Positions 3,195 through 27,245 of a stretch of 35,350 bases of DNA are shown piece after piece. The stretch comes from Betaproteobacteria bacterium SCGC AG-212-J23 (GTDB lineage: Bacteria; Pseudomonadota; Gammaproteobacteria; Burkholderiales; SG8-39). The stretch spans positions 1-35,350 of the forward strand of contig LSTF01000035.1 of assembly GCA_001644455.1 (NCBI GenBank). The letters are read 5' to 3'. Each line of letters opens with the position of its first letter. Positions within the stretch are counted from its first letter, which is position 1. The notes beneath the pieces are model-generated. The model made no database searches. It was given only the letters and a program-made list of their open reading frames with translations, and was not told the DNA's origin. A program made the translations under genes and the position numbers.

Positions 3195-4193
3195 CTATGC
3201 GGTAGCGGCCTTGTCGGCCTCGGTCAGGAACGAATCGGCGTAGAACTCGTCGGCCGGCAGCCTGCATTGCGCGCTGAAATCGCGCCGCGCCGACTCGACC
3301 ACGATCGGTGCACCGCAAGCATATACCTGGTGCCCCGACAGATCGGGAAAATCCTCCATCACCGCGCGGTGCACGAAGCCCGTGCGGCCCTGCCATTTCT
3401 CGTCGGAGAGAACGGGGACGAACTTGACGTGCGGCCAGCCCTGCGCCGCCTCGAACTGGTAGAGATCGCGCTTCAGGCGGCCGCCCCAGTAGAGCGTGAT
3501 CGGCCGGGAGATCTTCTTCTCCGCGGCGTATTCGCACATCGCCCGGATCGGCGCGAAGCCGGTGCCGCTCGCCAGCATGACGATCGGCTTGCTGGAATCC
3601 TCCCTCAGGTAAAAACTTCCCAAGGGACCCTCGAAGCGCAAGAGATCCCTCACCTTGAGCTTGTCGAACACGTGGTCGGTGAACAGGCCCCCGGGCGTAT
3701 GACGCACGTGGATCTCCAGCGCCGTGACGCCGGCGGGATCGGGACGCGTGGCGAGCGAATAACTCCTTCTTTTCCCGTCTTTCAATAGGAAGTCGATGTA
3801 CTGCCCGGCGAGGAAACGGAAGTTCTCGTTCATCGGCAGGCGCAGGCCGATCACCGCGACGTCGGGCGCGGGCTTGTCGAGCTTCTCGACGCGGCACGGA
3901 ATCGTGCGCGGGCGGACGCCCTGCACTTCGCGCACCTCGATCACGACATCGGTCAGGGGCTTCGCCTGGCAGAGCAACGCCAGCCCCTTCGCCTTGTCGC
4001 TCTCCGGCAGGTAAGTCTCGTGCACCATGCCGTAGTCGACCTTGCCCTCGAGGACGGTGCCGCGGCAGGTCCGGCAGACACCCGCGCGGCAGCTGTAAGG
4101 CAGCATGAAGCCCGCCGCCAATCCTGCCTGGACGATGTTCTGCCCCTCGGGCACCTCGAAGGTATGGCCGCTGGGCTGCAAAGTGACTTTCAT
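3195..4193 (-). CDS. 2Fe-2S / FAD / NAD(P)H oxidoreductase (electron-transfer reductase)
   Basis: A 332-residue three-domain reductase. The N-terminal plant-type ferredoxin has Cys35, Cys40, Cys43 and Cys75 (C-x4-C-x2-C-x31-C). The FAD domain has RRSYSLA at 142-148. The nucleotide-binding domain has ASGTGFAPI near 208-216 and a late CGAP motif. This order (ferredoxin, FAD, NAD) is that of reductases serving benzoate-type dioxygenases, phenol hydroxylase and similar oxygenases. Phthalate dioxygenase reductases differ, carrying FMN and a C-terminal ferredoxin. The start ATG at 4193 overlaps the livF stop (ATGA). It is the only such reductase in the window, so it may feed electrons to the Rieske oxygenase at 11797-13080 or to an oxygenase elsewhere; that link is inference. 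Confidence 0.88.
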   Translation of the reverse strand: MKVTLQPSGHTFEVPEGQNIVQAGLAAGFMLPYSCRAGVCRTCRGTVLEGKVDYGMVHETYLPESDKAKGLALLCQAKPLTDVVIEVREVQGVRPRTIPCRVEKLDKPAPDVAVIGLRLPMNENFRFLAGQYIDFLLKDGKRRSYSLATRPDPAGVTALEIHVRHTPGGLFTDHVFDKLKVRDLLRFEGPLGSFYLREDSSKPIVMLASGTGFAPIRAMCEYAAEKKISRPITLYWGGRLKRDLYQFEAAQGWPHVKFVPVLSDEKWQGRTGFVHRAVMEDFPDLSGHQVYACGAPIVVESARRDFSAQCRLPADEFYADSFLTEADKAATA

Positions 4194-4897
4194 TGCGTTC
4201 CTAAGTATGCCTTCTTGATTTGAGGCTGCGACATCAGTTGCGCCGGGTCTCCCTCGGCGACGATCCTGCCCTCGTCGAGCACGTAGCCGCGGCGGGCCAT
4301 CTGCAGGGCCATGGCGACATTTTGCTCCACCAGCAGCACCGCCACGCCCGCCTGGTTCACCTCGCGGATCGCGCGGAACATGTCCTGCACGATGAGCGGC
4401 GAGAGGCCGAGCGACGGCTCGTCGAGCAGGAGGAACCTCGGCTGCGCCATCAGCGCCCGGCCGATCGCCACCATCTGCTGCTGGCCGCCCGATAGCGCGC
4501 CGGCGGGCACGTCGAGCCGCTCGGCGAGCACTGGGAAAAGCGCGCACACGCGCGCCATCGACTCCGCGCGACCGCCGCGCGCCGCGCGCCGGTAGCTGCC
4601 AAGCTCGAGGTTCTCGCGCACCGTCAGGTTCACGAACAGGCGCCGTCCTTCGGGAACGATGGCGATGCCCCGGTCGCAGAAGCGATGCGGCGGCTCGCGC
4701 GTGATGTCCTGGCCGTCGACCACCAGCCGGCCGTCCGCCACCGCGTGCACGCCCGCCATGGCGCTGATCAGCGTCGACTTGCCCGCGCCGTTCGGCCCGA
4801 CGACGACCACCAGCTCGCCGGGATCGATCCGCAGGTGCACGCCCGAGACCGCGGCGGCGGCGCCGTAGTGGACCGCGACGTTGCTCACCTCATACAT
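4190..4897 (-). CDS. livF: Branched-chain-amino-acid-type ABC transporter ATP-binding protein LivF (system 1)
   Basis: A 235-residue ATPase of the LivF family. It has Walker A GPNGAGKST (about 34-42), the signature LSGGQQQMVAIGRAL, Walker B FLLLDEPSLGLSP and a LVEQNV switch region. With the LivG half of the preceding fusion protein it would form the nucleotide-binding dimer energising import. The start ATG at 4897 lies within the last codons of livMG (8-base overlap), and its own stop overlaps the reductase start. Liv systems of this kind in aromatic-degradation clusters often import aromatic acids rather than amino acids; the ligand here is not evident. Confidence 0.93.
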   Translation of the reverse strand: MYEVSNVAVHYGAAAAVSGVHLRIDPGELVVVVGPNGAGKSTLISAMAGVHAVADGRLVVDGQDITREPPHRFCDRGIAIVPEGRRLFVNLTVRENLELGSYRRAARGGRAESMARVCALFPVLAERLDVPAGALSGGQQQMVAIGRALMAQPRFLLLDEPSLGLSPLIVQDMFRAIREVNQAGVAVLLVEQNVAMALQMARRGYVLDEGRIVAEGDPAQLMSQPQIKKAYLGTQ

Positions 4898-6593
4898 GGG
4901 CGGTCCCCAGGTACGCCGAGACGACGTCGGGATGGCGCATCACCTCGGCGGGCTGGCCGGCGGCGATCGCCTTGCCATAGGTCAGCACGACGATGCGGTC
5001 GGTGAGCTCCATCACCGCGCGCATCACGTGCTCGACGAAGACGATCGTCGCGCCCTGCTCGCGGATGGCGCGGATCAGGCGCAGCGCGCCGTCCATCTCG
5101 ACCGGCGTCAGGCCGGAGAGCACTTCGTCGAGGAACAGCAGCTTCGGCCGCGACGCCAGCGCGCGGGCGAGCTCGAGGAATTTCCTTTCATGCAGGTTCA
5201 GATCCGGGGGAAAGCGATGCGCCTTCGCCTCCAGCCCGGTGAATTCGAGCCAGCGCCAGGCTTCCCGCTCGGCCGCGGCGCGGTCCATCGCCACCTGGCC
5301 GAACATCGGCGGCAGCGCGATGTTCTGCAGGACGGTCAGCTGCGGAAACGGCCGCGGGATCTGGTAGGTGCGCGCGATTCCCGCGCGCGCGATGCGATGC
5401 GCGGCCACCCCGATCAGCTCCGCGCCCTCGAAGCGGATCGAGCCGCTGTCCGCGGTGTAATGACCGCTCACCACGTTGATCAGCGTCGACTTGCCGGAAC
5501 CGTTCGGACCGACCAGGCCGAGGATTTCTCCGCCGCGGACGTCGAGATCGACGCCCGCGAGCGCCTGCACGCCCTTGAATGCCTTGGATGCCCCCCGCAC
5601 CTCCAGGATCGTCCCGGTCTTCGCTTTCATCGCAGGGCGCGCCGATTCAACCGGCGGCTTCCGGACAGGCTCCTTTTTCCGGAACCGCTTGAGGAGCTGG
5701 CCGAGGATCCCTTCCGGCATCGCGACGATGACCACGATGAGAATCAGGCCGGTCAGGGCACGGCCGAGCACCGCCGCCTGACCGCTGGTGAACGCATAGA
5801 GCAGCACGGTGATCGCCACCGCGCCCACCGCCGGCCCGAGCCAGTGGCGCGTGCCGCCGAGCGCGGCCATCAGGACCACGTTGACCGCCAGCGCGATGGA
5901 GAACGTCTCTGCCACGGTGACATAGGAGACGAAGACGGCATGGATGCCGCCGGCAAGCCCCGCGAGCGCGCAAGAGATGGCGAAAGCAGCCAGCTTGAAG
6001 CGATAGGTCGGCACGCCCATCACCTCGGCGACGTCCTCGTCGTCGTGGATCGCCAGCAGCCCGGTACCGAAGCGCGAGTGATAGATCGCGTAGGCGATCC
6101 AGAGGGTGAGCGCCGCGGCCGCGAGCATGAGCAGGTAGAGGAATCCGGACGCGGTCGGTGTGAGCTTCGGCGTGTCGACCATGAACTGGATGCCCGGCCC
6201 GCCGTCGACGGTATTGAGCGCGATGGTCGCGAGAACGAAGGTGATCGCGAGCGTGAGCAGTGCGAAAAGCTCGCCGCGCAGCGCTCGCACGCGAAACACC
6301 ACCGCGCCGAGCGCGACGCCGAGCACCGCGGCGGCGAGCGCGGCGAGCGGCAACGTCCAGAGAAAAGGCCAGTCGAGCTTGCCGGCGAGCCCCGCGGTCG
6401 TGTAGACGCCGACGCCGAAGAAGGCGCCGTGCCCGAAGGAGAAGTATCCGGAGTAGCCGCTGAGGATGTTCCAAGAAGTGGCGAGCACGATCGCGCTCAG
6501 GAGCAGGTACGAGAACGACTCGTAGAACGCCGGCAGCCCGACGTAGGGCAGCGCGAGCAGCGCCACGGCGAAGATGCCCAGGCCGGCCTTCAT
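4890..6593 (-). CDS. LivM-LivG fusion: ABC transporter permease fused to ATP-binding domain (system 1)
   Basis: A 567-residue protein. Residues about 1-310 are a LivM permease: many hydrophobic helices, WNILSGYSGYFSFGHGAFFGVG near 41-62 and a GGTRHWLGPAVGA loop near 246-258. After a basic, Pro-rich linker (about 303-325) comes a LivG ATPase with Walker A GPNGSGKST at 362-370 and Walker B LLFLDEVLSGL. The signature is degenerate (LHERKFLELARAL) and Walker B has Val where Pro is usual. LivM-LivG fusions are known in proteobacteria. The frame is continuous, and an internal ATG at 5630 could in principle also yield free LivG. The start ATG at 6593 shares one base with the livH stop (TGATG). Confidence 0.92.
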   Translation of the reverse strand: MKAGLGIFAVALLALPYVGLPAFYESFSYLLLSAIVLATSWNILSGYSGYFSFGHGAFFGVGVYTTAGLAGKLDWPFLWTLPLAALAAAVLGVALGAVVFRVRALRGELFALLTLAITFVLATIALNTVDGGPGIQFMVDTPKLTPTASGFLYLLMLAAAALTLWIAYAIYHSRFGTGLLAIHDDEDVAEVMGVPTYRFKLAAFAISCALAGLAGGIHAVFVSYVTVAETFSIALAVNVVLMAALGGTRHWLGPAVGAVAITVLLYAFTSGQAAVLGRALTGLILIVVIVAMPEGILGQLLKRFRKKEPVRKPPVESARPAMKAKTGTILEVRGASKAFKGVQALAGVDLDVRGGEILGLVGPNGSGKSTLINVVSGHYTADSGSIRFEGAELIGVAAHRIARAGIARTYQIPRPFPQLTVLQNIALPPMFGQVAMDRAAAEREAWRWLEFTGLEAKAHRFPPDLNLHERKFLELARALASRPKLLFLDEVLSGLTPVEMDGALRLIRAIREQGATIVFVEHVMRAVMELTDRIVVLTYGKAIAAGQPAEVMRHPDVVSAYLGTAHV

Positions 6594-7444
6594 CAGAATC
6601 GCGACGGCCGGAAAAGCAGAATGGCGATCAGCAGCGAGAACGACACCAGCGGCGCCCAGGTCGGCGCCGTGACCGCCATGGTGAGCGCCTCGCTCACGCC
6701 GATGACGATGCCGGCGACGAGCGGCCCGAGCGGCCGGCCGAGCCCGCCCATCATCACCGCGGCGAACACCACGCCCATCCAGGCGTAGATCTGCACCGGC
6801 GCGAGCGTGTGGTCGAGCGCGAGGCAGACGCCGGCGACCGCGGCGAACGCGCCGGCCACCCCCGACACGAGATAGCCGAGCCTCTTCTCGTCGACGCCGA
6901 ACGCCGCGGCGATCGGCGCGTCCTCGGTCATCGCGCGGATCGCCTTGCCGAGATCCGTGAAGCGCAGCACCGCCCACGTGCCGAAGCAGAGCGCCAGGGC
7001 AAGACCGAGCGTGATCACGTCGGGCAGCGAGAGATACAGCGGCCCGATCTTCCAGCGCACCTGCGCGTACGCGCTCTCCATGCGCTGGAAATCCGCCGTC
7101 CAGTACCACTGGATGCCCGCCTCGATGATGCTGGTGAGGCCGAAGGTGACGAGCAGCGTGTTGAGCAGCGTCACCTTGAAGCGGGTGAAGAACCCGTGCA
7201 GCGCCACCCCGAGGCCGAAGAAAAGCGGCACCGTGACGGCAAGGCTGACGAAGGGATCGACCTTCGCCACCGCGGCGAGCTGGAAGGTGAGATAGCCGCC
7301 GAGGAAAGCGAGCGCGAAATGCGTCAGGTTGACCTGGCGCAGCATGCCCCAGGAAAGGCTCAGGCCCAGTCCGAGCAGGCCGTACAGCGCGCCGATGAAA
7401 ACGCCGGACAGGACCGACTGCCCGAGCAGCGTCGCGCTCGGCAC
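6593..7444 (-). CDS. livH: Branched-chain-amino-acid-type ABC transporter permease LivH (system 1)
   Basis: A 283-residue integral membrane protein of the LivH family. The N-terminal GALYGLLGLGLSLSWGMLRQ leads into VNLTHFALAFLGGYL, and near the C-terminus there is the family glycine-rich segment MMGGLGRPLGPLVAG. About eight transmembrane segments are apparent. The start is taken as GTG at 7444, two bases after the TGA of the binding-protein gene, because the frame upstream runs only through antisense-like, Pro/Gly/Arg-rich sequence. It pairs with the LivM half of the fusion protein to form the translocation pore. Confidence 0.9.
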   Translation of the reverse strand: MPSATLLGQSVLSGVFIGALYGLLGLGLSLSWGMLRQVNLTHFALAFLGGYLTFQLAAVAKVDPFVSLAVTVPLFFGLGVALHGFFTRFKVTLLNTLLVTFGLTSIIEAGIQWYWTADFQRMESAYAQVRWKIGPLYLSLPDVITLGLALALCFGTWAVLRFTDLGKAIRAMTEDAPIAAAFGVDEKRLGYLVSGVAGAFAAVAGVCLALDHTLAPVQIYAWMGVVFAAVMMGGLGRPLGPLVAGIVIGVSEALTMAVTAPTWAPLVSFSLLIAILLFRPSRF

Positions 7445-7446
7445 GG

Positions 7447-8643
7447 TCAGACGATCTTCGCTCCCGGGGCCGCCCATGGGTCGGGATGCACCACCAGCCA
7501 GCGGCCCTGCTGCAGCTGCTTCACCTTGTACAGGTCGGCGCCCTCGACGTAGTTCTGCGGCCCATTCCACTTGAGCGTGCCGAACAGGCACTTGACCTCG
7601 CTCTTGCGCAACCAGGCGGCGAGCGTCTTGTCGTCGAGGCTCTTGGTGGCATTCACTGCCGCCTCGAGCACCTGCCAGGCCGCGTACATGATCGCGGATT
7701 GCAGGTCGACCGCGGTGTACGGGATGCCGGCTTCCTTGGCGCGCTCAGCATAGGTCTTCACGAACTGCGCGATCGCCGGGTCGTCGGTGAACGGCGGGTG
7801 CGACTCGAACGTGGTGAGCGCGAGCGAGCCTTGCGCCTCCGGAACCTTCAGCATCGGACCGGGCGCCGGGAAGAGGTGCACCTGCGCAGGCGGCCGGTAG
7901 TCGATCTTCTTCATCGCCTCGAGCATCAGCACCGGATCGATGCCGTTGGTGCCGCCCCAGAGGAAGTCCGGGTTCGCGTCCTTGACGCGGGCCGCGATCG
8001 GACCGAAGTCGCGATTGCCGAACTCGTATTCGAGGTGCAGCACTTCCTGCAGGCCGCGCTTCTTCAGGACTTCGCGCGCGCCAACCGAGATGGCGTGCAC
8101 CGAGGGGAACTTGCTGGTGACGATGGCGATGGTCTTCGGCGGCTTGGGCAGCTTCGCCGCCGCGTCGAAGATGTGGTTCGGCCAGACGACCTCCGGGTCG
8201 AAGGGCGAGCCCGCGGTCTGGAACTGCATGTCGTACTTGGCGAGCCGGGGAATGCCGAACGAGGTGTGCAGCAGCATCTTGTTATAGCGCTGCGCCACGC
8301 CCATCGCGGCGAGGATCGACGCCGTGGCGTACGGGCTCTGGATCAGGTCGACCTTGTCGGCGGTGATGAGCTGCTCGTAGATCGTGCGCGTCAGCTCCGG
8401 CTTCGACTGGTCGTCGCGCAGCACCCATTCCACCGGCCGGCCGAGCAGGCCGCCGCGCTTGTTCAGGTTGTCGACGCAGATCTCGGCCGTGACCTTGTGG
8501 ATGATGGCGAGGGAGGCGAGCGGCCCGGTGAGCGGCAGCGTGCTGCCGATCCGGATGGGCTTGCCTTGCGCGCGTGCCGGCAGGATGAAGCTGGACAGGA
8601 CCGCGCTTCCCGCGGCCAGCGCCTGACGTCTGGTGATTTTCAT
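7447..8643 (-). CDS. ABC transporter substrate-binding protein, Peripla_BP_6 type (system 1)
   Basis: A 398-residue periplasmic binding protein. Its N-terminus MKITRRQALAAG followed by a hydrophobic run and LPARAQ looks like a Tat-type signal with cleavage near residue 26. The mature part begins KPIRIGSTLPLTGPLA, typical of LivJ-like type 1 binding proteins, and includes ICVDNLNKRGGLLGRPVEW. It is the first gene of the operon and has a strong Shine-Dalgarno (GAGGAGGAG) before ATG 8643. The divergent IclR gene and the palindrome between them suggest ligand-responsive control. The ligand is unknown; an aromatic or other carboxylate fits the neighbourhood. Confidence 0.92.
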   Translation of the reverse strand: MKITRRQALAAGSAVLSSFILPARAQGKPIRIGSTLPLTGPLASLAIIHKVTAEICVDNLNKRGGLLGRPVEWVLRDDQSKPELTRTIYEQLITADKVDLIQSPYATASILAAMGVAQRYNKMLLHTSFGIPRLAKYDMQFQTAGSPFDPEVVWPNHIFDAAAKLPKPPKTIAIVTSKFPSVHAISVGAREVLKKRGLQEVLHLEYEFGNRDFGPIAARVKDANPDFLWGGTNGIDPVLMLEAMKKIDYRPPAQVHLFPAPGPMLKVPEAQGSLALTTFESHPPFTDDPAIAQFVKTYAERAKEAGIPYTAVDLQSAIMYAAWQVLEAAVNATKSLDDKTLAAWLRKSEVKCLFGTLKWNGPQNYVEGADLYKVKQLQQGRWLVVHPDPWAAPGAKIV

Positions 8644-8664
8644 TGCTCCTCCTCAGGATGCGCG

Positions 8665-8696
8665 AGTATATTGTTCATAGGACAACGCATTGTCAA
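8665..8696 (-). promoter_or_regulatory. Candidate promoter of the system-1 transporter operon
   Basis: On the minus strand a perfect TTGACA (8696-8691) is followed after 20 bases by TATACT (8670-8665), five of six matches to the -10 consensus. The spacer is longer than the usual 17 and is filled by the palindrome at 8671-8685. A leader of roughly 15 bases plus the Shine-Dalgarno then reaches ATG 8643. The long spacer suggests a regulated promoter. It has not been tested here. Confidence 0.45.
8671..8685. promoter_or_regulatory. Imperfect palindrome, candidate IclR operator
   Basis: TTGTTC, three bases (ATA), then GGACAA: five of six positions pair, giving a 15-bp near-palindrome. It lies in the 52-bp gap between the divergent binding-protein operon and the iclR-type gene, between the candidate -35 and -10 of the former. 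IclR-family proteins typically bind short palindromes next to their own gene, so this is the best operator candidate. Direct binding is inference. Confidence 0.5.
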
Positions 8697-9457
8697 TGGT
8701 GAAACGTCGCCGCGGAATCCAGTCGATCGATACCGGCATCCGTCTTCTCGAGGTGCTGGAGAAAGCTCGCGGCCCACTGGCGCTGAAAGAGCTTAGCGCA
8801 CGCGCCGACATGGATCCCAGCGGCGCGCACCGTTATCTCGCGAGCTTCGTGAGATGCGGCCTGGTGATCCAGAGCGCGGATTCCCGCTACGACTTCGGCC
8901 CGCTGGCGCTGCGCCTGGGCCTCGCCGCGTTGCAGCGGCTCGATCCGATCCAGGCGACCGAGCGCGCCCTGCCCGCCCTGGTCGAGGCAACCGGCTTTAC
9001 CGCGCTGCTCGCGGTGTGGAGCAACCGCGGGCCGACGGTAGTGCACTGGCAGCGTACCGGCGATCTCGTCACCTCGCTGAATCTCGGCTCCGTGCTGCCG
9101 GTGGCGCGCTCGTCGCTCGGCCGCATGCTGCTCGCTTTCCTGCCTTCGGGCGTCACTGCGGAAGCGCTGGCCCTCGAGGCGAAGAAGGAAAAGCTCGATC
9201 GGGAGGCGCTGGAGCGAGAGCTCGAACGCTCGCGCAAGTCGCGCCTCGCCTACGCCGACAAGACCGTGATTCCAGGCCTGTACGCCACCGCGAGCGTAGT
9301 GCGCGGCTGGAACGGCGAAGCGCTCTGCGCCGCGGCGCTGATCGGCTCGGACGCCGAGCTCGCCCGGCAGAACAATCCCGCCGCGTTGAAGCTGCGCGCG
9401 CTGTGCGACCGGCTTTCGCGCGAGGCGGGCGCAACGGATCTCAAGATCGCAGCCTGA
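8696..9457 (+). CDS. IclR-family transcriptional regulator
   Basis: A 253-residue regulator. The N-terminal winged helix-turn-helix covers about residues 6-65 (GIQSIDTGIRLLEVLEK...LALKELSARADMDPSGAHRYLASFVRCGLV). The C-terminal effector domain includes LNLGSVLPVARSSLGRMLLAFLP and the late GWNGEALCAAALIG strand. ATG 8696 is preferred over the upstream TTG at 8690. It is divergent from the system-1 transporter operon and followed after nine bases by the FAH-family gene, so it probably controls both directions in response to a carboxylate metabolite. The candidate promoter and operator of the divergent operon lie immediately upstream. Confidence 0.9.
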   Translation: MVKRRRGIQSIDTGIRLLEVLEKARGPLALKELSARADMDPSGAHRYLASFVRCGLVIQSADSRYDFGPLALRLGLAALQRLDPIQATERALPALVEATGFTALLAVWSNRGPTVVHWQRTGDLVTSLNLGSVLPVARSSLGRMLLAFLPSGVTAEALALEAKKEKLDREALERELERSRKSRLAYADKTVIPGLYATASVVRGWNGEALCAAALIGSDAELARQNNPAALKLRALCDRLSREAGATDLKIAA

Positions 9458-9466
9458 GGAGGACAG

Positions 9467-10354
9467 ATGCACCTGGTCATGTTCGTCAAAGACAAGCAGC
9501 CCCGCGCCGGCGTGATCGACGGCGACGATATCGTCGACATCAACGCCAATGATCGCTCGCTGCCGACGACGCTCAAGGGGATCCTCGAAGCGAATGCGCT
9601 TTCCTCGGTCAAGAAACTCCTGAAGAGCAAGAAGCACCGCTCCCCCTTCAAGAAGGCGAAGCTCCTGCCGCCGATCTCGAATCCCGGCCTGCTCCTCTCG
9701 GTCGGCATGAACTATCACGAGCACCTGAAGGAGATGAAGACGCCGGTGCCGGAGAAGCCGGCCGCGTTCACCAAGAGCGTCGCCAGCATCATCGCCTCGG
9801 GCGAGCCGATCCTGCTGCCCCCCTCCCACCCGAGCATGGTGGATTGGGAGGGCGAGTTCACCGTGGTGATCGGCAAGGGCGGCCACCGCATCCCGGCAGC
9901 GAAGGCGCTCGACCACGTCGCTGGCTACACCCTCGCGAACGACGTCTCGGCGCGCGACTGGGTGACGGCGATCTTCCAGTCGCAGGGAATCATGGGGCCG
10001 ATCCATGCCTGGGAGCACAACCTGCTGGGCAAGATGATGCCGACCTTCTGCCCGATGGGACCGTGCATCGCCACCCGGGACGAGATTCCCGACCCGGCGA
10101 ACGTGAAGATCCAGACGCGGCTGAACGGCCAGGTGATGCAGGACGCAAACACCGACGACCTCGTGTTCAGCGTCGTCAAGCTGATCGAGTACTACTCGCA
10201 GTTCTACCGCTTCATGCCGGGCGACTGCATCACCACCGGCTCGCCGAGCGGCGTCGGCTTCGGGCGCAACCCGAAAGTATTCATGAAGGCCGGCGACGTC
10301 GTCGAAGTCGAGGTGAAGGAAATCGGCGTGCTCAGGAATCCGATAAAGGGTTGA
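9467..10354 (+). CDS. Fumarylacetoacetate hydrolase (FAH) family protein (1)
   Basis: A 295-residue enzyme of the FAH superfamily, which contains C-C bond hydrolases, decarboxylases and isomerases acting on ring-cleavage products. Metal-site residues appear as Glu128 and Glu130 in VDWEGEFTVVIG and Asp159 in ANDVSARDW. GITTG-like CITTGSPSGVGFG and a GDVVEVEVKEIG tail are family hallmarks. The N-terminal region has a Lys-rich segment (about 49-65) that is probably surface exposed. The Shine-Dalgarno GAGGAGG overlaps the iclR stop. It is the first enzyme gene of a plus-strand unit with the LLM oxidoreductase. The specific substrate cannot be deduced. Confidence 0.9.
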   Translation: MHLVMFVKDKQPRAGVIDGDDIVDINANDRSLPTTLKGILEANALSSVKKLLKSKKHRSPFKKAKLLPPISNPGLLLSVGMNYHEHLKEMKTPVPEKPAAFTKSVASIIASGEPILLPPSHPSMVDWEGEFTVVIGKGGHRIPAAKALDHVAGYTLANDVSARDWVTAIFQSQGIMGPIHAWEHNLLGKMMPTFCPMGPCIATRDEIPDPANVKIQTRLNGQVMQDANTDDLVFSVVKLIEYYSQFYRFMPGDCITTGSPSGVGFGRNPKVFMKAGDVVEVEVKEIGVLRNPIKG

Positions 10355-11441: not shown

Positions 11442-11810
11442 ATGGGGTTGGACGATGCCGGCCGCGTCATCCTCGGTGGCTACTTTCTGATCGCGGGGAT
11501 CGTCAACCTCGTCACGCCGGGCAGCATCCGCGACCACGTCGATCGCATGCGCGGCTTCGGCACGCCGTTACCGGAAGCCGCCTTCTGGTCCGGGATCGTG
11601 TTGCAGTTCGTCGGCGCCGGGCTGGTGCTCGCCGGCGTCCGGGTCGATGTCGGCGCCTGGTGCCTGATCGCCTTCACCGTGCTCGCCACGGCGATCTTCC
11701 ACCGCTTCTGGCAGCGGGCCGATCCGGTGCAGAAGCGCATCGCGCGGCTGTTCTTCATGGCCAACGCCGCGGTGGTCGGCGGACTGCTGCTGCTGACTAC
11801 TTGGCGGTGA
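11442..11810 (+). CDS. Small four-helix membrane protein, DoxX-like
   Basis: A 122-residue protein with four hydrophobic segments (about 8-25, 47-66, 70-87 and 103-119). The N-terminal ILGGYFLIAGIVNL is followed by a helix ending in a conserved-looking PLPEAAFWSG, as in the DoxX/DoxD-like family. The function of most members is unknown; some associate with quinone or thiol redox enzymes. It begins two bases after the LLM stop and its last 14 bases overlap the convergent Rieske gene. Family assignment is moderately secure; the role is not. Confidence 0.72.
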   Translation: MGLDDAGRVILGGYFLIAGIVNLVTPGSIRDHVDRMRGFGTPLPEAAFWSGIVLQFVGAGLVLAGVRVDVGAWCLIAFTVLATAIFHRFWQRADPVQKRIARLFFMANAAVVGGLLLLTTWR

Positions 11811-13080
11811 CCGGCTGCTCGACGCCGAGCGTTCGCCAGTCGGTGCTCTTCGACACCACTCCCTCGAACGACGACAGGCTCGCGTAGGGCATTTCCTTCT
11901 GCTCGCCGATCGCCGGTCCGCCGTCGCGGAATGTCTTCGCCGCGGCGACCATCATGCGGCGGAACTGCGCCACCGCGAGGTCGCTCGCGCCCGGGTTGTC
12001 CTGGCTGCGGTCGGTGATCGGTCCCATCGATTCCCACATCGCCATGTCCTGGGTCGGGATGCCGCTGATGCCGGTGAAGTCGCCGCGCTTCATCAGGTCG
12101 CGGTCCTGCCGGTAGTTGTTCTCGAAATTTCTTTTCTTTCTAAAGGAAGTGTCCAGATCGACGCCGACTTCGGCCGCGCAGAACTTCCGCCACGCATCCT
12201 GAGCGATGCCCTTCTTCGGATCCGGATGCCAGGCCACCCAGTAGAACATGGTGTTCACGTCGTCGATCGGCACCAGCATCTGCGAGAGCTTGTACTGGTC
12301 ATTGGGCGGAATCAGCACCGTAAAGGGCGCAAGGAACAACGTCGTCCTTACATACTGGTTCGTTTCCGGGCTCTTGATCGGCTTGCGCAGCGCCGCGTAG
12401 CGGAACCCGTAGGACGTCGGCTCGAATTGCATCTTCGGCGCCTTGTCGGTCGACGGCCGCACCCAGGCGTCGCCGGTCGCGGTCGAGCCTTCGACCTCGC
12501 CCGCCGGCATGTTGCTCGAATGCAGGCTCGAGCTGTGCGCCGAATCGATCGAGCCTTCCAGGACCTGTGCCCAGTTGCACGCGGCGTGCATCTTCACCAC
12601 GGCGTACTTGATGCCGGGAACCGGCGCCCACGCAGGCGGCTCGAACTCCCGCATCTGATCTCGCGGACCCATCCACGCCCACACGAAGCCGCCGCCTTCG
12701 CGCGCGGGATACGAGGTGGTCTTCTTGCCCAGGCGCTGCGCCGCGCCCGGCGCTTCGGAGGGCATGTCGACGACATTGCCGTCGACGTCGAATTTCCAGC
12801 CGTGATAGAGGCAGCGCAGGCCGCATTCTTCATTGCGGCCAAAGACCAGCGAAGCGCGGCGGTGCAGGCAGTACTCGCTCAGCACGCCGAGCTTGCCATT
12901 TGAATCTCTGAAGACGACCAGGTCCTCGCCGAGAAGCCTCGACCGGACCGGCGCGCCGTCCTTCTCGGCCACCTCGTCGGCGAGGCAGACCGGCAGCCAG
13001 TGGCGGCGCATGATGCCGCCCATCGGCGCGTCGCCCTCGACGCGGCACAGCAGGTCGTTCTCTTCCCGGCTGAGCTTCAC
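11797..13080 (-). CDS. Rieske non-haem iron oxygenase, phthalate 4,5-dioxygenase-like oxygenase subunit
   Basis: A 427-residue oxygenase. The Rieske 2Fe-2S ligands are Cys71-x-His73 and Cys90-x2-His93 (YCLHRRASL, RCLYHGWKF). The mononuclear iron site shows Asp179-x2-His182-x4-His187 in VLEGSIDSAHSSSLHSS, preceded by Asn169-Trp. The flow MKLSREENDLLCRV...MGGIMRRHWLPVCL and MPSEAPGAAQ resembles phthalate 4,5-dioxygenase (Pht3) and related single-component-alpha oxygenases. The divergent Gfo/Idh and downstream Pht5-like genes support that reading. No reductase is adjacent. The start is GTG 13080, with its Shine-Dalgarno AGGAGG at the centre of the 13082-13103 palindrome. The substrate could be a different aromatic carboxylate. 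Confidence 0.9.
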   Translation of the reverse strand: MKLSREENDLLCRVEGDAPMGGIMRRHWLPVCLADEVAEKDGAPVRSRLLGEDLVVFRDSNGKLGVLSEYCLHRRASLVFGRNEECGLRCLYHGWKFDVDGNVVDMPSEAPGAAQRLGKKTTSYPAREGGGFVWAWMGPRDQMREFEPPAWAPVPGIKYAVVKMHAACNWAQVLEGSIDSAHSSSLHSSNMPAGEVEGSTATGDAWVRPSTDKAPKMQFEPTSYGFRYAALRKPIKSPETNQYVRTTLFLAPFTVLIPPNDQYKLSQMLVPIDDVNTMFYWVAWHPDPKKGIAQDAWRKFCAAEVGVDLDTSFRKKRNFENNYRQDRDLMKRGDFTGISGIPTQDMAMWESMGPITDRSQDNPGASDLAVAQFRRMMVAAAKTFRDGGPAIGEQKEMPYASLSSFEGVVSKSTDWRTLGVEQPVTAK

Positions 13081-13081
13081 G

Positions 13082-13103
13082 TTTACTTAGCCTCCTAAGT
13101 AAA
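13082..13103. promoter_or_regulatory. Perfect 9-bp inverted repeat, candidate MarR operator overlapping an RBS
   Basis: TTTACTTAG (13082-13090), spacer CCTC, then its exact reverse complement CTAAGTAAA (13095-13103). It sits in the 38-bp gap between the Rieske gene (start 13080, minus) and the Gfo/Idh gene (start 13119, plus). A MarR gene lies downstream on the plus strand, and MarR dimers bind palindromes of about this size. On the minus strand the centre reads TAGGAGGCTA, so the Shine-Dalgarno of the Rieske gene is at the centre. The transcript could fold into a hairpin with GAGG in the loop. Confidence 0.6.
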
Positions 13104-13118
13104 TCATACTCCTGCCTC

Positions 13119-14237
13119 GTGAAGAAGCTCAAGCTCGGCGTGGCGGGACTCGGGCGCGCCTTCGCCCTGACGGCGCCGACGCTCGCCGCCGACAAGCGCG
13201 TCGAACTGGTGGCGGCTACCGATCCTCGCCCCGAAGCTCTTGGAAAGATTGCGCGAGATTTTGGCGCGGAAGGATTGGCTTCCTTCCAGGACCTCCTGAA
13301 AAGCAGCGCCGAAGCGATCTATATCGCGACGCCGCACCGCTTCCACGCCGAGCAGGCGATCGCCGCCGCGAAGGCCGGCAAGCACGTGCTGGTCGAGAAA
13401 CCGATGGCGCTGTCCCTCAGGGAATGCAGCGCCATGGCCGCGGCGGCGAAGAAGCATCGTGTCCACATGATCGTCGGTCCAAGCCACAGCTTCGACGCGC
13501 CCGTCCGAAGAACCCGGCAGCTCATCCCGCAATTCGGGCGAGTGCGCATGATCACCGCGTTCAACTACACCGACTTCCTCTACCGGCCGCGCATGCCCGA
13601 AGAGCGGAAACATGCTCTGCTCAATCAGTCGGCCCACCACGTCGACATCGTGCGGCTGCTCTCCGGCAGCGCGCTGATGTCGGTTCGCGCGCATACCGCG
13701 GGTCAGGGTGCCTACGCCGCCCTGCTCCGTTTCAAGGAAGGCTTCGCGACCATCGTCTATAGCGGCCATGCGCATTTCGATTCGGACGAATTCGCCGGCT
13801 GGATCGGCGAGCTCGGCCAGAAGAAGGACCCGTCGCAGTATGGTTCCGCACGCAGGGCGCTCGCAGGCCGCGATGAGTTGAAGTTCAAAGCCGCGAGAAA
13901 TTACGGTGGTCCCGAATTCAAGTCGAGCGAGGCGCAGTTCCATGAGCACTTCGGTCCGATCATCGTCTCCTGCGACAAGGCCGATCTGCGGCCGCTGCCG
14001 GACGGCGTCATGGTCTACGCGGATGGCGAGCGGCGCCTCGAGCCGCTCGCGCCGACCGACACCCCGCGGGCAGGCGTGATCGACGAGCTGTACGACGCGG
14101 TGGTGAACGGCAAGGCGCCGCTGCACGACGCCGCCTGGGGCCTCGCCACCACGGAGGCCTGCCTGGCGATCCTGAAATCCGCGAAGAGCGGCAAGGAGAT
14201 CCCGTTAAAGCATCAGACGAGCGCCTCGCGCACCTGA
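13119..14237 (+). CDS. Gfo/Idh/MocA-family dehydrogenase (Pht4-like)
   Basis: A 372-residue oxidoreductase. The N-terminal Rossmann fold has GVAGLGRAF at 7-15 and the family EKP motif (Glu93-Lys94-Pro95 in VLVEKPMAL). A later NQSAHHVDIVRLL carries the likely catalytic His/Asp helix. Phthalate 4,5-pathways use a Gfo/Idh enzyme (Pht4) to oxidise the cis-dihydrodiol to 4,5-dihydroxyphthalate, and its position between a Pht3-like oxygenase and a Pht5-like decarboxylase gene fits that role. The start GTG 13119 has no clear Shine-Dalgarno. The final codons overlap the MarR gene. The step is inferred from context, not from substrate residues. Confidence 0.87.
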   Translation: MKKLKLGVAGLGRAFALTAPTLAADKRVELVAATDPRPEALGKIARDFGAEGLASFQDLLKSSAEAIYIATPHRFHAEQAIAAAKAGKHVLVEKPMALSLRECSAMAAAAKKHRVHMIVGPSHSFDAPVRRTRQLIPQFGRVRMITAFNYTDFLYRPRMPEERKHALLNQSAHHVDIVRLLSGSALMSVRAHTAGQGAYAALLRFKEGFATIVYSGHAHFDSDEFAGWIGELGQKKDPSQYGSARRALAGRDELKFKAARNYGGPEFKSSEAQFHEHFGPIIVSCDKADLRPLPDGVMVYADGERRLEPLAPTDTPRAGVIDELYDAVVNGKAPLHDAAWGLATTEACLAILKSAKSGKEIPLKHQTSASRT

Positions 14238-14635
14238 CCAAGGAGGCATGGCGGGGCTTCACGCGCGCGCTCCAGGCCGAGCTCGCCGCGCACGGCGTGC
14301 CGTTCGGCCACTGGACGTTCCTGCGCATCCTCTGGCAGCGCGACGGCCTGACGCAGCGCGAGCTTTCCGCCGAGGCCGGCGTCACCGAGCCCAGCACCTT
14401 CGCCGCGATCCGCGCGATGGAGAAGCAGGGTTACGTGACGCGGCGCCAGACCGCCGGCAACCGCAAGAACGTCTACCTGCACCTTACGGCGAAAGGCCGG
14501 GCGCTCGAAACCCGGCTGGTCCCGCTCGCGGAACGGGTCAACAAGCTGGCGGTCAAGGGTGTAACTTCCGCAGACGTACAAGCCGCGCGGCGCGTGCTGC
14601 TCGCCGTGATCGAGAACTTTTCCAGGGAACCATGA
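14234..14635 (+). CDS. MarR-family transcriptional regulator (start uncertain, probably non-ATG)
   Basis: The core is clear: GHWTFLRILWQRDGLTQRELSAEAGVTEPSTFAAIRAMEKQGYVTRR is a MarR winged helix-turn-helix, followed by NRKNVYLHLTAKGRALE (wing). The first canonical start is GTG 14297, which would give 112 residues and lose helix 1. The frame is open upstream and encodes TKEAWRGFTRALQAELAAHG, a normal MarR helix 1. The best start there is CTG 14234, overlapping the preceding TGA in a CTGA, which gives 133 residues. The stop overlaps the next start (ATGA, 14632-14635). It probably controls the divergent oxygenase and dehydrogenase genes through the 13082-13103 repeat. Confidence 0.8.
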   Translation: MTKEAWRGFTRALQAELAAHGVPFGHWTFLRILWQRDGLTQRELSAEAGVTEPSTFAAIRAMEKQGYVTRRQTAGNRKNVYLHLTAKGRALETRLVPLAERVNKLAVKGVTSADVQAARRVLLAVIENFSREP

Positions 14636-15624
14636 AGAGACTCCGCCTGACCCTCGCCTGCTGGCCCTACGACCGCACGCGCGCGCTCGCCGACGGCAGC
14701 GTGCGCATGGAAGGCATCGACCTCGTCTACCTGCCGCTGGAAGTCGAGGAGACGTTCTGGCGCCAGGCCCGCTTCCAGGAATTCGACGCCTCGGAGATGT
14801 CGCTCTCGTCGTACGTGAAGACGCTCAATTCCGACAAGCCGCCGTTCATCGCCATCCCGGTGTTCCCGTCGCGCTCGTTCCGCCACTCCTGCATCTTCGT
14901 TTCGGCAAAAAGCGGCATCCGCAAGCCGGAGGATCTCAAGGGCAAGCGCGTTGCGGCGCCGGAATACCAAATGACCGCGCCAGTGTGGATCCGCGGCATC
15001 CTCGCCGACGATTTCGGCGTGAAGGTCACTGACGTCCAGCATTTCTCGGGTGGTGAGGAAGAGCCGGGGCGCGTCGAGAAGTTGAAGCTGGATCTGCCCT
15101 CCCATATCCGCTATGCGCCGATTCCAGAAGGCAAAACCATTTCGCGCATGCTTGCCGACGGCGAGCTGGATGCGTTCGTCACCGCCCGCGCGCCATCGAC
15201 TTTCTATTCAGAGCCGGACAAGGTGAAGCGTCTCTTCCCCGACTACGTCGAGCGCGAGAAGGACTTCTACCGCCGCACGAAGATCTTCCCGATCATGCAT
15301 ACCGTGGTGATCAAGCGCGAGATCTACGACGCGAATCCGTGGATCGCCCAGGCGCTCTACAAGGGTTTCGAGACCGCAAAGAAAAGAACCCTCCACCAGC
15401 TCGCCGAAACTCACGTCCTGGCGAACATGCTCCCTTGGCTGGTCTCGCACGTCGAGGAAGCGCAAAAACTGATCGGCGAAGACTGGTGGCCCTACGGCCT
15501 GGAGGCGAACCGCCACGTGCTGGAGACGTTCCTCCGCCACCATCACGAGCAGGGGCTGTCGAAGCGCCGCTTCAAGCCCGAAGAGATCTTCGCGCGCGAA
15601 ACGCTCGTCTCGTTCAAGGTATAG
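14632..15624 (+). CDS. 4,5-dihydroxyphthalate decarboxylase-like protein (Pht5-like, binding-protein fold)
   Basis: A 330-residue protein opening LRLTLACWPYDRTRALADGSV with MEGIDLVYLPLEVEETFWRQ, the recognisable start of the 4,5-dihydroxyphthalate decarboxylase family. It then has FDASEMSLSSYV, VFPSRSFRHSCIFV and GIRKPEDLKGKRVAAPEYQMTAPVWIRGIL. These enzymes share the type 2 periplasmic-binding-protein fold but are cytoplasmic, and no signal peptide is present here. In the phthalate pathway Pht5 yields protocatechuate. ATG 14632 overlaps the MarR stop. Some relatives are annotated as ABC binding proteins, so enzymatic activity is inferred from family and context. Confidence 0.87.
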   Translation: MKRLRLTLACWPYDRTRALADGSVRMEGIDLVYLPLEVEETFWRQARFQEFDASEMSLSSYVKTLNSDKPPFIAIPVFPSRSFRHSCIFVSAKSGIRKPEDLKGKRVAAPEYQMTAPVWIRGILADDFGVKVTDVQHFSGGEEEPGRVEKLKLDLPSHIRYAPIPEGKTISRMLADGELDAFVTARAPSTFYSEPDKVKRLFPDYVEREKDFYRRTKIFPIMHTVVIKREIYDANPWIAQALYKGFETAKKRTLHQLAETHVLANMLPWLVSHVEEAQKLIGEDWWPYGLEANRHVLETFLRHHHEQGLSKRRFKPEEIFARETLVSFKV

Positions 15625-17677: not shown

Positions 17678-18559
17678 ATGCGCAAAGTCCGCGTCGCGCC
17701 CAAGGGTATGGGCCTAAACGATTTCGTCGCCGAGCAGGAAGGGTTCTTCGCCGCCGAGGGGATCGAGGTCGAATGGGACATCAAGACCTTCCGCGGCACC
17801 CAGTCGAGCTGGAAAGGCAGCAGCTACCTGCAGCGGCCCCAGGACAAGCCCTATACCGAGGCGAAGGACGGCAGCCTCATCCAGTGCGCCTGCCTGTGGG
17901 GCACGATTTCCAACGCCGGCGCCGGCATGGGCCGCTTCGTCGGCGACTGCTACGGCGTCTCGCCGTGGGCGATCTTCGTCCGGCCGGACTCGAAGATCCG
18001 CAAGCCCGAGGACCTCAAGGACGTGCCGATCTCGGTCGGCCTGCGCGCCGGCAGCCACTTCAACGTTCCCTTCCGGCTGGAGAAATACCTCCCGCTCGCG
18101 AACATCAAGACAGTCAACACCGGCGGCTTCGGCGCGCGCCTCAAGGCGCTGCTCGACGGCGAGGTCGAGGCGGCGAGCCTGCTGCCGCCGCAGATCGACA
18201 TGGCGCGCCAACTCGGCCTGCGCGCGGTCATCGAGGACGAATTCAAGACGCTCTGGTGGGTGCCGGAGTCCGCGGCGCAGGAGGACCTGAAGGCCTACCT
18301 GAGGGGCCTCGATCGCGCAGAAAAGGTATTGGCTGCTTCTTTGGAAAAGTTTCTTCCCTTGTGGGAAAAGTGCATCCCGCCTGAATTCAAGCAGGGCTAT
18401 GCCTGGGATTACTCGAAGTTCACGCGCGGCGAGCGGTTCGTCTACCGCCCGCTGCCGCGCGAGGACTTCGACATGACCATGGAGCAGGTCGAGCGCTGGA
18501 AGCTCGACGACTACCTGAAGGAACGGAGCTTCGAAAAGCTCGTCTTCAGAAGCGCGTAG
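17678..18559 (+). CDS. Binding-protein-fold protein without signal peptide (NMT1/decarboxylase-like)
   Basis: A 293-residue protein starting MRKVRVAPKGMGLNDFVAEQEGFFAAEGIEVEWD, that is, directly with the first strand and helix of the type 2 binding-protein fold and with no signal peptide. Further features are IFVRPDSKIRKPEDLKDVPISVGLRAGSHF and LKALLDGEVEAASLLPPQIDMAR. The layout matches binding proteins and 4,5-dihydroxyphthalate-decarboxylase-like proteins, as in the Pht5-like gene upstream, but sequence similarity to that gene is low. A strong Shine-Dalgarno (GAGGAGGA) precedes ATG 17678. No transporter genes flank it, so an enzyme or intracellular binding role is as likely as transport. 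A possible -10 (TATAGT) lies at 17655-17660. Confidence 0.72.
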   Translation: MRKVRVAPKGMGLNDFVAEQEGFFAAEGIEVEWDIKTFRGTQSSWKGSSYLQRPQDKPYTEAKDGSLIQCACLWGTISNAGAGMGRFVGDCYGVSPWAIFVRPDSKIRKPEDLKDVPISVGLRAGSHFNVPFRLEKYLPLANIKTVNTGGFGARLKALLDGEVEAASLLPPQIDMARQLGLRAVIEDEFKTLWWVPESAAQEDLKAYLRGLDRAEKVLAASLEKFLPLWEKCIPPEFKQGYAWDYSKFTRGERFVYRPLPREDFDMTMEQVERWKLDDYLKERSFEKLVFRSA

Positions 18560-21535: not shown

Positions 21536-22456
21536 ATGGGTCGCCAATTCAACGAAGACAACCTCACCGCCGAGGTGGTCAAGCGCCTCGGCAAGACGAA
21601 GAACGCGCGCCAGCGCCAGATCATGGCGAGCGCCGTGAAGCACCTGCACGCGTTCGCGCGCGACGTGCACCTCACCGAGGAGGAATGGTTCGAGGGCATC
21701 AAGTTCCTCACCGCCGTCGGCCAGAAGTGCGACGACAAGCGCCAGGAATTCATCCTGCTCTCCGACGTGCTCGGCCTGTCCATGATGATCGTCGCGCTGA
21801 ACCACAAGACCGCCCCCGGCGCGACCGAGGCGACGGTGCTCGGGCCGTTCTTCGCGCACGGCGCGAAGGAATACGGCTACGGCGGCGACCTGCGGGTCGG
21901 CTGCACGATGAAGGGCGAGGACGTGTGGGTCAGCGGCCGCGTGCTCGGCACCGACGGCAAGCCCGTGCCGAATGCCGTGCTCGACATCTGGCAGGCCAAG
22001 GCGGATGGCATCTACGACGTGCAGGAGGCCGATGCCGAATTCGAGCTGCGCGGCCGCGTCAAGGCGAACGCGAAGGGCGAGTACGCCTTCGCCAGCTACA
22101 AGCCGAAGTTCTACTCGATCCCGATGGATGGCCCGGTGGGCGAGCTGACCAAGGCCACCACCGGCAACCACATGCGCCCGGCGCACATGCACGCCATCGT
22201 CTCGGCGCCCGGCTACCAGCAGGTCATCACGCACGTCTTCGTCGAGGGTGACCCGTATCTCGACGGCGACGCGGTGTTCGCGGTGAAGAACTCGCTCGTC
22301 GCGAAGTACAAGAAGGTGAACAACGCCGCCGAGGCGAAGAAGCTCGGCATGCCGAACCCCTTTCTCAAGCTCGAGTTCGACTTCCACCTCTCGCCGGCCG
22401 GCAAAGCGAAGACCAAGGCGCGCAAGGCGATCGCCCCGAGCGACGCGCTGGCATGA
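21536..22456 (+). CDS. Intradiol ring-cleavage dioxygenase (catechol/hydroxyquinol 1,2-dioxygenase type)
   Basis: A 306-residue enzyme. The N-terminal helical linker domain (1-105) typical of catechol and hydroxyquinol 1,2-dioxygenases is present. The Fe(III) ligands are Tyr160 (DGIYDVQ), Tyr193 (KFYSIPMDGPVG), His217 and His219 (RPAHMHAIV), with near-canonical spacing. GRVLGTDGKPVPNAVLDIWQA is a family hallmark. These features place it with the aryl-1,2-dioxygenases and closer to hydroxyquinol than protocatechuate enzymes. The Lys-rich tail (about 288-306) is unusual but short. ATG 21536 has a GGAGGAG Shine-Dalgarno. It overlaps the cupin gene in an ATGA. Substrate choice between catechol and hydroxyquinol is inference. 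Confidence 0.93.
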   Translation: MGRQFNEDNLTAEVVKRLGKTKNARQRQIMASAVKHLHAFARDVHLTEEEWFEGIKFLTAVGQKCDDKRQEFILLSDVLGLSMMIVALNHKTAPGATEATVLGPFFAHGAKEYGYGGDLRVGCTMKGEDVWVSGRVLGTDGKPVPNAVLDIWQAKADGIYDVQEADAEFELRGRVKANAKGEYAFASYKPKFYSIPMDGPVGELTKATTGNHMRPAHMHAIVSAPGYQQVITHVFVEGDPYLDGDAVFAVKNSLVAKYKKVNNAAEAKKLGMPNPFLKLEFDFHLSPAGKAKTKARKAIAPSDALA

Positions 22457-25069: not shown

Positions 25070-25823
25070 AGGCCCACCAGGGCGCACCGAACGGCCAGCG
25101 CAGGAAGCCTCGCGAGATCGCGAGCAGCGCCGCGGCCAGGACAAGCGCGAAGTAGAAAAGGTTCTCCAGAAAGACCATTTCTGGAAACAGCGCGAGCCCG
25201 TTCACGTAGATCAGCGAAGGGGGCACGAGCAGGATGAACCAGGTCGGCCGCAACGCGTCCGGAAGCGGCGGCCCGACGATCGCGCGGTAGAAAAGCAGCG
25301 CCATCAGGATCGGCGCCACCGTCGCCGACACGCCGAACGTGAAGTGCGACGCCTCGCTCAGGCCGAGCAGCAGTCCCGGCCCTGGCAGGACGATGCCGCC
25401 GACGAGGATGATCAGCCAGCCGGGGTTGATCTGCCCGAGCTCGACGCCGCCCGAGAGGAGCCGCAGCAGCGCCCATCCCTGGAGCAGCGTGAGGAGAACG
25501 AACGAGAGCCACCACAGCCACACCCCGGCGTCGTGCCAGTACGAGCCGATGCCGCCGGCGACGAGCGACATGCCGACCGGCAGCGCGCCGCAGAAGCCCA
25601 TCGTCAGGGGATTGGCGAAATCTGCCTTTATCTCTTCGACGCCCTTCAGGAAATACAGGATGAGGAGAACCACCAGCGCGATCGCGCCGAGGAAGATCCA
25701 GGGCTCGGTCAGGTAGGCCGGCGCGCGAACCACGCCCGGCCAGACCGTCGCCACGCTGCGCGCCGTGAGACCGAGGCCGGCCAAGCCCATTACAGCGCCA
25801 TAGAAGCCGACATGGATCTTCAT
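24903..25823 (-). CDS. TDT-family (SLAC1/TehA-like) membrane transporter
   Basis: A 306-residue membrane protein with about nine or ten hydrophobic helices. FANPLTMGFCGALPVGMSLVAGGIG near 69-93 matches the tellurite-resistance/dicarboxylate (TDT) family signature, and helices continue with FTFGVSATVAPILMALLFYRAI and PPSLIYVNGLALF. The family includes anion channels, malate and sulfite permeases and TehA. ATG 25823 overlaps the livF stop as ATGA, so it is part of the transporter operon. It may pass an organic acid or inorganic anion linked to the imported compound. Family assignment is fairly secure; the transported ion is unknown. The 3' end overlaps the cupin frame. Confidence 0.8.
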   Translation of the reverse strand: MKIHVGFYGAVMGLAGLGLTARSVATVWPGVVRAPAYLTEPWIFLGAIALVVLLILYFLKGVEEIKADFANPLTMGFCGALPVGMSLVAGGIGSYWHDAGVWLWWLSFVLLTLLQGWALLRLLSGGVELGQINPGWLIILVGGIVLPGPGLLLGLSEASHFTFGVSATVAPILMALLFYRAIVGPPLPDALRPTWFILLVPPSLIYVNGLALFPEMVFLENLFYFALVLAAALLAISRGFLRWPFGAPWWAFTFPLDALAYAASRYAQDHPAPLWRAVCAATLLLAALVVLLVLWRTLRSAASPRA

Positions 25824-26536: not shown

Positions 26537-27245
26537 GGTAGGCCTTCTGCACGTCGGGGTTCTCGACGATCGACGCCGGCGTGCCCTCGCAGATGATCTT
26601 GCCGGCATCGAGGCAGACGACGCGCTGCGAGAAGCGCATCACCGCCTGCATGATGTGCTCGATCATGATGATCGTTATGCCTTTTGCATTCAATTCAAAA
26701 AGTATTTCCAATACTTCGTCGACCTCGTTCCCGGCCAGTCCAGCCATCGCCTCGTCGGAGATGAGCAGGCGCGGCTTCGCCGCCATCGCGCGCGCCAGCT
26801 CCAGCTTGCGCAGCTCGACCTGCGAGAGCTGGCTCGCCCGCACCTGCGCCTTGTCGGCGAGCCCCATGCTCTTCAGGATTTCCATCGCCATCGTCTCGCC
26901 CTCGCTGTCCTTGAGGTGCAGCACGTAGGCCGAAGGCACCAGCAGGTTCTCCAGCACCGACATGGTGGTGAACGGTCGCGGCACCTGGAAGCTGCGCGCG
27001 ATGCCGAGCCGCGTCCGCTGGTAGGCCGCCAGCCCGCTGATCTCTTTCTGAGCGAAGACTATTTTTCCGGATTCGTTGCGCAGCAGGCCGGAGATGCAGT
27101 TGATCAGCGTCGTCTTGCCCGAGCCGTTCGGCCCGATCAGGCCGAAGCGCTCGCCCTGGGCGATGTCGAGGCTCACCCCGGCCAGCGCAGTGAAGCCGCC
27201 GAAGTGCTTCGAGACGCCGCTTACCTGGAGGAGCTTTTCAGCCAT
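26526..27245 (-). CDS. livG: ABC transporter ATP-binding protein LivG (system 2)
   Basis: A 239-residue LivG-type ATPase. Walker A GPNGSGKTT is at 38-46, then Q-loop RSFQVPRPF and Walker B RLLISDEAMAGL. The signature is degenerate (SQVELRKLELARAM instead of LSYGxQRxLEIARAL), and DEA replaces DEP, as in the LivG half of the system-1 fusion; catalytic Glu is kept. ATG 27245 overlaps livM by 25 bases. The C-terminal KAYLGA is the conserved LivG ending and contains the start codon of livF. Confidence 0.92.
   Translation of the reverse strand: MAEKLLQVSGVSKHFGGFTALAGVSLDIAQGERFGLIGPNGSGKTTLINCISGLLRNESGKIVFAQKEISGLAAYQRTRLGIARSFQVPRPFTTMSVLENLLVPSAYVLHLKDSEGETMAMEILKSMGLADKAQVRASQLSQVELRKLELARAMAAKPRLLISDEAMAGLAGNEVDEVLEILFELNAKGITIIMIEHIMQAVMRFSQRVVCLDAGKIICEGTPASIVENPDVQKAYLGA

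Follow-up and report, generated by a model that had tools for sequence, protein, structure and literature searches.

The phthalate 4,5-dioxygenase pathway, which leads from phthalate to protocatechuate, is already known, and related gene clusters are found in both Burkholderiales and sphingomonads. The clusters of Polaromonas JS666 (L199), Limnohabitans (L178), Variovorax WDL1 (L014) and Polaromonas CJ2 (L015) contain pht3, pht4, pht5 and usually marR. The solved oxygenase 7fjl, which we take to be the phthalate dioxygenase of Comamonas testosteroni KF1, belongs to a set of Pht3 proteins encoded near a PDR reductase gene. In Sphingobium yanoikuyae SHJ, which grows on phthalate esters, the pht cluster (phtAaAcAdBCDR) comprises MarR, Pht5, Pht4 and a divergent Pht3, with a separate ferredoxin, a ferredoxin reductase and nadC beside Pht3 and without a PDR being reported in the accessible part of the source (PMC6051330). 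Here, a cluster at positions 11797–15624 of contig LSTF01000035.1 from Betaproteobacteria bacterium SCGC AG-212-J23 was analyzed. The whole stretch of 35,350 nucleotides (the window) is the entire contig C35 of the assembly G000 (2.06 Mb, 123 contigs, estimated to be 60% complete). The cluster conforms to the known type; no dedicated reductase was found, and its predicted operator is well supported. We consider it probable that it encodes the conversion of phthalate to protocatechuate under MarR control. The following features were identified.

11797–13080, minus strand: pht3-like Rieske oxygenase gene with a GTG start, predicted terminal oxygenase of phthalate 4,5-dioxygenase (Pfam domains, match to 7fjl, residues)
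13082–13103, no strand: 22-base perfect palindrome TTTACTTAG-CCTC-CTAAGTAAA between pht3 and pht4, predicted MarR operator
13103–13132, minus strand: predicted sigma-70-like pht3 promoter, TTGAGC, 18 bases, TATGAT (9 of 12 matches; mean 0.0 in 50 shuffles)
13119–14237, plus strand: pht4-like Gfo/Idh gene
14234–14635, plus strand: marR (MarR Pfam domain, 44.8 bits; frame, codons), start uncertain, CTG at 14234 or GTG at 14297
14632–15624, plus strand: pht5-like gene, predicted 4,5-dihydroxyphthalate decarboxylase (closest solved chain, tree)

Open reading frames, Pfam domains and matches to solved structures confirmed the genes and coordinates given in an earlier, sequence-only reading of the window. 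That reading had the oxygenase facing the Gfo/Idh gene, which was not the case: pht3 and pht4 are divergent and stand back to back. The pht5 and marR genes overlap by 4 bases. The frame of marR is open 5′ of the first ATG, GTG or TTG codon (14297), back beyond 14207, and 4/4 genus members share a CTG, at 14234–14236 in the window, that overlaps with the stop codon of pht4 (CTGA). For these reasons the start codon of marR is uncertain, and this CTG may serve as such.

All three enzymes had solved homologues assigned to the pathway, this assignment resting on the depositors' names or on matching residue numbers. The oxygenase contains Rieske (74.8 bits) and LigXa_C (449 bits) domains and the C-x-H / C-x-x-H motif, and its best solved relative was 7fjl (566 bits, 57.9% identity over 416 aligned residues), followed by 7fhr (231 bits). 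The Gfo/Idh protein (GFO_IDH_MocA, 90 bits) was within its family closest to 7wzd, named ‘4,5-dihydroxyphthalate dehydrogenase’ (374 bits; next chain 251 bits). The Pht5-like protein, matched by the Phosphonate-bd profile below its cut-off (23.8 bits), was closest to 9jp7, named ‘4,5-dihydroxyphthalate decarboxylase’ (308 bits; next chain 17.9 bits). Positions 182, 207 and 244 of the 7fjl chain carry residues agreeing with the numbering in the accessible part of PMC12445078, according to which S182 and R207 are key for phthalate, R244 binds a carboxylate, and the isophthalate enzyme has V178 and L198 in place of S182 and R207. Alignment to 7fjl showed that D178 (bridging), S182, R207 and R244 are all present in the window Pht3. 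The same set was found in 51/51 locus rows of at least 50% identity and in 0/24 rows at 35–38%, where 22 were D-V-gap-R, one D-S-gap-R and one D-T-gap-V; 7fhr has D-A-R-R. Phylogeny of the oxygenase had been proposed beforehand as a check, and in a tree of 77 aligned sequences (quick method, SH-aLRT support only) the window Pht3 was placed with 7fjl on a 52-row branch (SH-aLRT 96). Pht3 would convert phthalate with O2 into the cis-4,5-dihydrodiol, Pht4 would oxidize this with NAD(P)+ to 4,5-dihydroxyphthalate, and Pht5 would strip off one carboxyl group to yield protocatechuate.

The most conspicuous difference from the Burkholderiales clusters named above, which have PDR within 3.7 kb of Pht3, often TctC, and another gene order, concerned the reductase. 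No PDR motif was detected in the window, and a genome-wide search revealed no PDR orthologue in the four Pht3-bearing genomes of the genus (best E-values with the PDR query: G000, 3.7e-6; G001, 7.1e-9; G003, 1.1e-6; G009, 5.5e-7). As G000 is 60% complete, absence of a gene from the window or the assembly proves little; G001 (96% complete) and G009 (92%) are better tests. In seven related genomes (G015, G021, G040, G044, G055, G062, and G097), a gene immediately adjoining Pht3 matched the PDR query at 51–57%. In G027, the two closest Pht3-like genes are 52–54% identical, and PDR matches of just 33–39% lie on other contigs.

The Pht3 proteins of the genus joined 13 alphaproteobacterial rows, with those of sphingomonads in the same clade, to form a 17-row clade (SH-aLRT 98), the sister set consisting of 33 rows including 7fjl. 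A PDR-type motif gene was present within 3.7 kb of Pht3 in 32/32 sister loci, compared to 0/17 loci of the clade within the stretches examined (flanks of 4 kb or more on each side of Pht3 in 11 loci, and less in the remaining six; the four genus members genome-wide, the other 13 rows as surrounding stretches). Placing the genus Pht3 with the sister set was not rejected in an approximately unbiased (AU) test (p 0.393). On plasmid pANTQ-1, which encodes a Pht3 of 65.5%, a gene labelled ‘PDR/VanB family’ is located close to Pht5, at a distance of 15 kb from Pht3. The clade and the sister set differ at 17 positions, each at a level of at least 80% in both (for example W282 in 17/17 vs. F in 33/33); the window Pht3 has the sister-set residue at three of these (8, 34, and 366). 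Loss of PDR is not new in sphingomonads, since S. yanoikuyae SHJ has already been described without it and with a ferredoxin and ferredoxin reductase (PMC6051330, accessible part). Using the S. yanoikuyae proteins as tblastn queries, neither these two proteins nor nadC was found in the window, and the ferredoxin and ferredoxin reductase were likewise not found in L049, L051, and L053.

A separate suggestion from the quick trees, that the cluster is a mosaic with a sphingomonad-like Pht3 and a Burkholderiales-like Pht4, is not claimed, since AU tests rejected no alternative (Pht3 of the genus with the canonical set, p 0.393 as above; Pht4 of the genus with the alphaproteobacterial set, p 0.175, and with the canonical set, p 0.103).

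We tentatively propose, as a possibility that is still doubtful, that a phthalate dioxygenase clade shared by this uncultured betaproteobacterial genus and alphaproteobacteria gave up PDR, that in the genus the oxygenase runs on a borrowed donor, possibly the BenC-type FAD reductase encoded at 3195–4193, with docking changes maybe among the 17 positions, and that a MarR-controlled phthalate regulon has the palindrome as its operator. If the clade without PDR holds up, it would offer matched oxygenases with and without PDR from which electron-donor choice in Rieske enzymes could be learned, and a borrowed donor, if true, would represent a natural reductase exchange within one Rieske family. As previously stated in the sequence-only reading, no reductase adjoins the oxygenase; a BenC-type one is encoded 7.6 kb away.

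3195–4193, minus strand: BenC-type Fer2-FAD-NAD reductase gene, candidate Pht3 electron donor (domain profiles; counter-evidence from pairing with a VOC gene)

The best profile for this product was BenC, at 165 bits far below the cut-off of 430. That it replaced PDR as the dedicated Pht3 donor in the genus seems rather unlikely. No PF00175 protein other than this one was found in G000, its relatives are located near Pht3 in G001 (at 0.7 kb) and G009 (at about 3 kb), and Pht3 is the only Rieske oxygenase found in the window in a search of its own genome, all of which is consistent with such a role. However, in seven genomes of the same family (L229–L235) the reductase is paired with a VOC gene away from Pht3, and five of these have a Pht3 with its own PDR elsewhere. 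Furthermore, the relative in G003 is on a different contig from Pht3, the frame of the one in G009 is apparently broken, and relatives are widespread (94/101 genomes at E ≤ 1e-60). Owing to the VOC pairing, the product was dropped as a proven donor and kept as a candidate only.

Beyond the enzymes themselves, the cluster was shown to recur within the genus. Among ten other same-genus genomes searched, Pht3 orthologues (E ≤ 1e-90) were detected in G001, G003, and G009, all with pht3 divergent from pht4-marR, followed by a TctC-type gene on the opposite strand and then pht5. In G004, marR stands directly before pht5 on a contig that starts inside marR. Presence of marR is ordinary in such clusters, as seen in Variovorax WDL1, Polaromonas CJ2, Comamonadaceae OTU4NAUVB1 and Sphingobium plasmids.

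The sequence-only reading had named Pht5 phylogeny as a further check. In a 126-row tree (quick method, 9jp7 not among the rows), the window Pht5 fell into a 110-row set, with Betaproteobacteria metagenome-assembled genomes as its nearest named relatives. Members of this set are encoded in complete clusters with PDR (Polaromonas JS666, Limnohabitans, Rhodoferax) and in sphingomonads. The set is apart from the Pht5 proteins of Comamonadaceae plasmids; a separate 12-row set includes proteins of Polaromonas CJ2, Variovorax WDL1 and Acidovorax, and both sets occur in PDR-bearing clusters. A Pht3 at least 50% identical to one of three queries was found in 32/80 named loci of the window's Pht5 clade, some of which are short. 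As this clade also occurs without Pht3, Pht5 alone does not fix the substrate; the neighbouring genes do.

A related aromatic carboxylate had been suspected as the substrate because of the missing reductase and the missing protocatechuate ring-cleavage enzyme. This was not supported, since all four substrate residues are kept and both facts are explained otherwise: lack of PDR is common to the Pht3 clade, including the phthalate-ester-growing S. yanoikuyae SHJ, and lack of a protocatechuate dioxygenase is uninformative in an assembly that is 60% complete, with PcaH over the cut-off in two same-genus genomes. That the module carries out the same three steps on a related aromatic dicarboxylate, such as 4-hydroxyphthalate or a heteroaromatic vicinal dicarboxylate, is improbable in our view. 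The 44–46% identity to the Comamonadaceae plasmid Pht5 proteins, the presence of the window's Pht5 clade next to 36% Rieske genes that do not encode the phthalate residue set, and the near-fixed nature of the 17 positions that separate the Pht3 clade from the 7fjl-containing set would fit such a substrate. The four residues in the window Pht3 argue against it, as does the occurrence of the same Pht5 clade in complete PDR-bearing clusters and in sphingomonad clusters like that of the phthalate-ester degrader. Phthalate thus appears to be the likeliest substrate.

Pht5-like proteins are abundant in the family, with at least one match at E ≤ 1e-30 in 40/101 genomes (including G044 and G013) and up to 16 per genome (G021). 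In a second kind of locus, a Pht5 of the window clade is accompanied by a 36% Rieske oxygenase in which the phthalate residue set is missing (L012, L165, L182, L187, L198, L205, L210, and others); several of these also carry a 26–31% reductase. In the window itself, 17678–18559 (plus strand) encodes a binding-protein-like product with no obvious signal peptide and no Pfam match at E ≤ 1e-5, a 79% relative of which is encoded near Pht5 in G006. It may be a further cytoplasmic enzyme of the Pht5 kind.

The reading of the cluster as having its own MarR switch was strengthened by an operator-like palindrome at the pht3 promoter in addition to the marR gene. The 38-base gap separating the start codons of pht3 and pht4 contains the palindrome TTTACTTAGCCTCCTAAGTAAA. 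With up to 3 mismatches allowed, the window had no other match to it, and 100 shuffles gave 0; the predicted pht3 promoter ends at the first base of the palindrome. Its core, CTTAG-N4-CTAAG, was scored up to 300 bases upstream of Pht3, the remainder of the loci serving as background. The core was exact in 4/4 genus loci. In sister loci it was exact in 17/32, with 26/32 at up to one and 27/32 at up to two mismatches, and L199, L178 (one mismatch), L014 and L015 share it with the window. In alphaproteobacterial loci it was exact in 1/13 and present at up to two mismatches in 4/13; the MarR of SHJ is about 41% identical to the window MarR, and the SHJ palindrome core is different. No core at up to two mismatches was found in 23 loci of the 36% Rieske group or in two of G027. 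Background at one mismatch was 0 in 86 kb for the genus, 4 in 514 kb for the sister set, 9 in 212 kb for the alphaproteobacterial loci and 9 in 384 kb for the 36% group. The core stands before another upstream cluster gene in L015, L139, and L137, L014 has a second copy before PDR, and the core is missing from L129, where a LysR gene was present and MarR gave no hit. In a genome-wide search with TACTTAG-N4-CTAAGTA, all five exact matches, and in G001 the match with one mismatch, were located at pht3. A fixed-pattern search for the differing alphaproteobacterial palindrome gave nothing useful. No such operator or MarR-controlled phthalate regulon was found in the open literature as far as accessible, subscription journals mostly not being covered.

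The palindrome is likely to be a MarR operator, as judged from its position and conservation. MarR, made from the pht4-marR-pht5 operon, would bind this single site between pht3 and pht4 and block the pht3 start region together with the upstream side of pht4, and hence its own gene, until released by a pathway compound. The locus would then offer a compact MarR/operator pair for phthalate sensing. With the operator site and the missing part both named, a pathway call that was plausible but doubted becomes testable. An RNA hairpin controlling pht3 translation, conceivable because the palindrome loop holds part of the pht3 Shine-Dalgarno sequence (AGGAGG, minus strand, 13096–13091, 10 bases before the GTG), is highly improbable, as the core is found at distances of about 5 to 211 bases from Pht3 in relatives, precedes a different gene in the three loci mentioned above and is missing from the LysR-containing L129.

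For the cleavage of protocatechuate, which would be carried out by enzymes encoded outside the cluster, the window offered no candidate, as noted earlier from sequence: PcaGH and LigAB were not found, and genome-wide searches for LigB, LigA and PcaH placed nothing else there. The sole intradiol enzyme (21536–22456) was most similar to catechol 1,2-dioxygenase, below the cut-off (161 vs. 392 bits). A search of the genome for protocatechuate dioxygenases, also suggested earlier, gave none over the cut-off in G000, and the wider search supplied them in the genus: among nine genomes including G000, G001, G003, and G009, G001 and G009 had a PcaH over the cut-off (357 vs. 296.4 bits) and a second intradiol gene adjoining it, and none of the other seven had PcaH over the cut-off. 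LigA exceeded its protocatechuate cut-off in G044, G021, G040, and G055.

Several observations weigh against a MarR-controlled phthalate cluster. Only three of the ten other same-genus genomes carry Pht3, some genomes being incomplete, and 48/80 named loci of the window's Pht5 clade, some of them short, have no Pht3 of at least 50% identity. Both nadC and TctC, common in such clusters, were not found in the window. No PDR gene that would supply Pht3 with electrons was found in the G000 genome. PcaH was not over the cut-off in G000 or G003, and LigA of G000 was below the protocatechuate cut-off. Regarding the operator, the core is missing from L128 despite its MarR gene, and L133, L194, L202, and L215 carry the core but gave no MarR hit in the stretch examined. 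Genome-wide, at up to two mismatches, TACTTAG-N4-CTAAGTA gave one site each in G000, G001, G003, and G044, two in G009 and three in G021, and was no commoner than the backward control (2, 3, 1, 11, 0, and 21 sites, respectively), which makes the two-mismatch counts uninformative.

The G000 contig C69 (L078) contains at 5281–10346 a lignin-aromatic cluster in which LigM-like and DesA-like O-demethylases, scoring above their cut-offs, stand next to a LigA/LigB pair. This pair was rejected as a protocatechuate 4,5-dioxygenase, with LigA at 70 bits vs. a cut-off of 108.6 and neighbours of the LigM/DesA type; a gallate or methylgallate role appears as likely. Elsewhere in the window, three branched-chain-type ABC uptake systems (4190–8643, 25820–30350, and 31439–35349, minus strand) were recognized from translated open reading frames, and further catabolic genes encode the intradiol dioxygenase, FAA hydrolases and an amidohydrolase.

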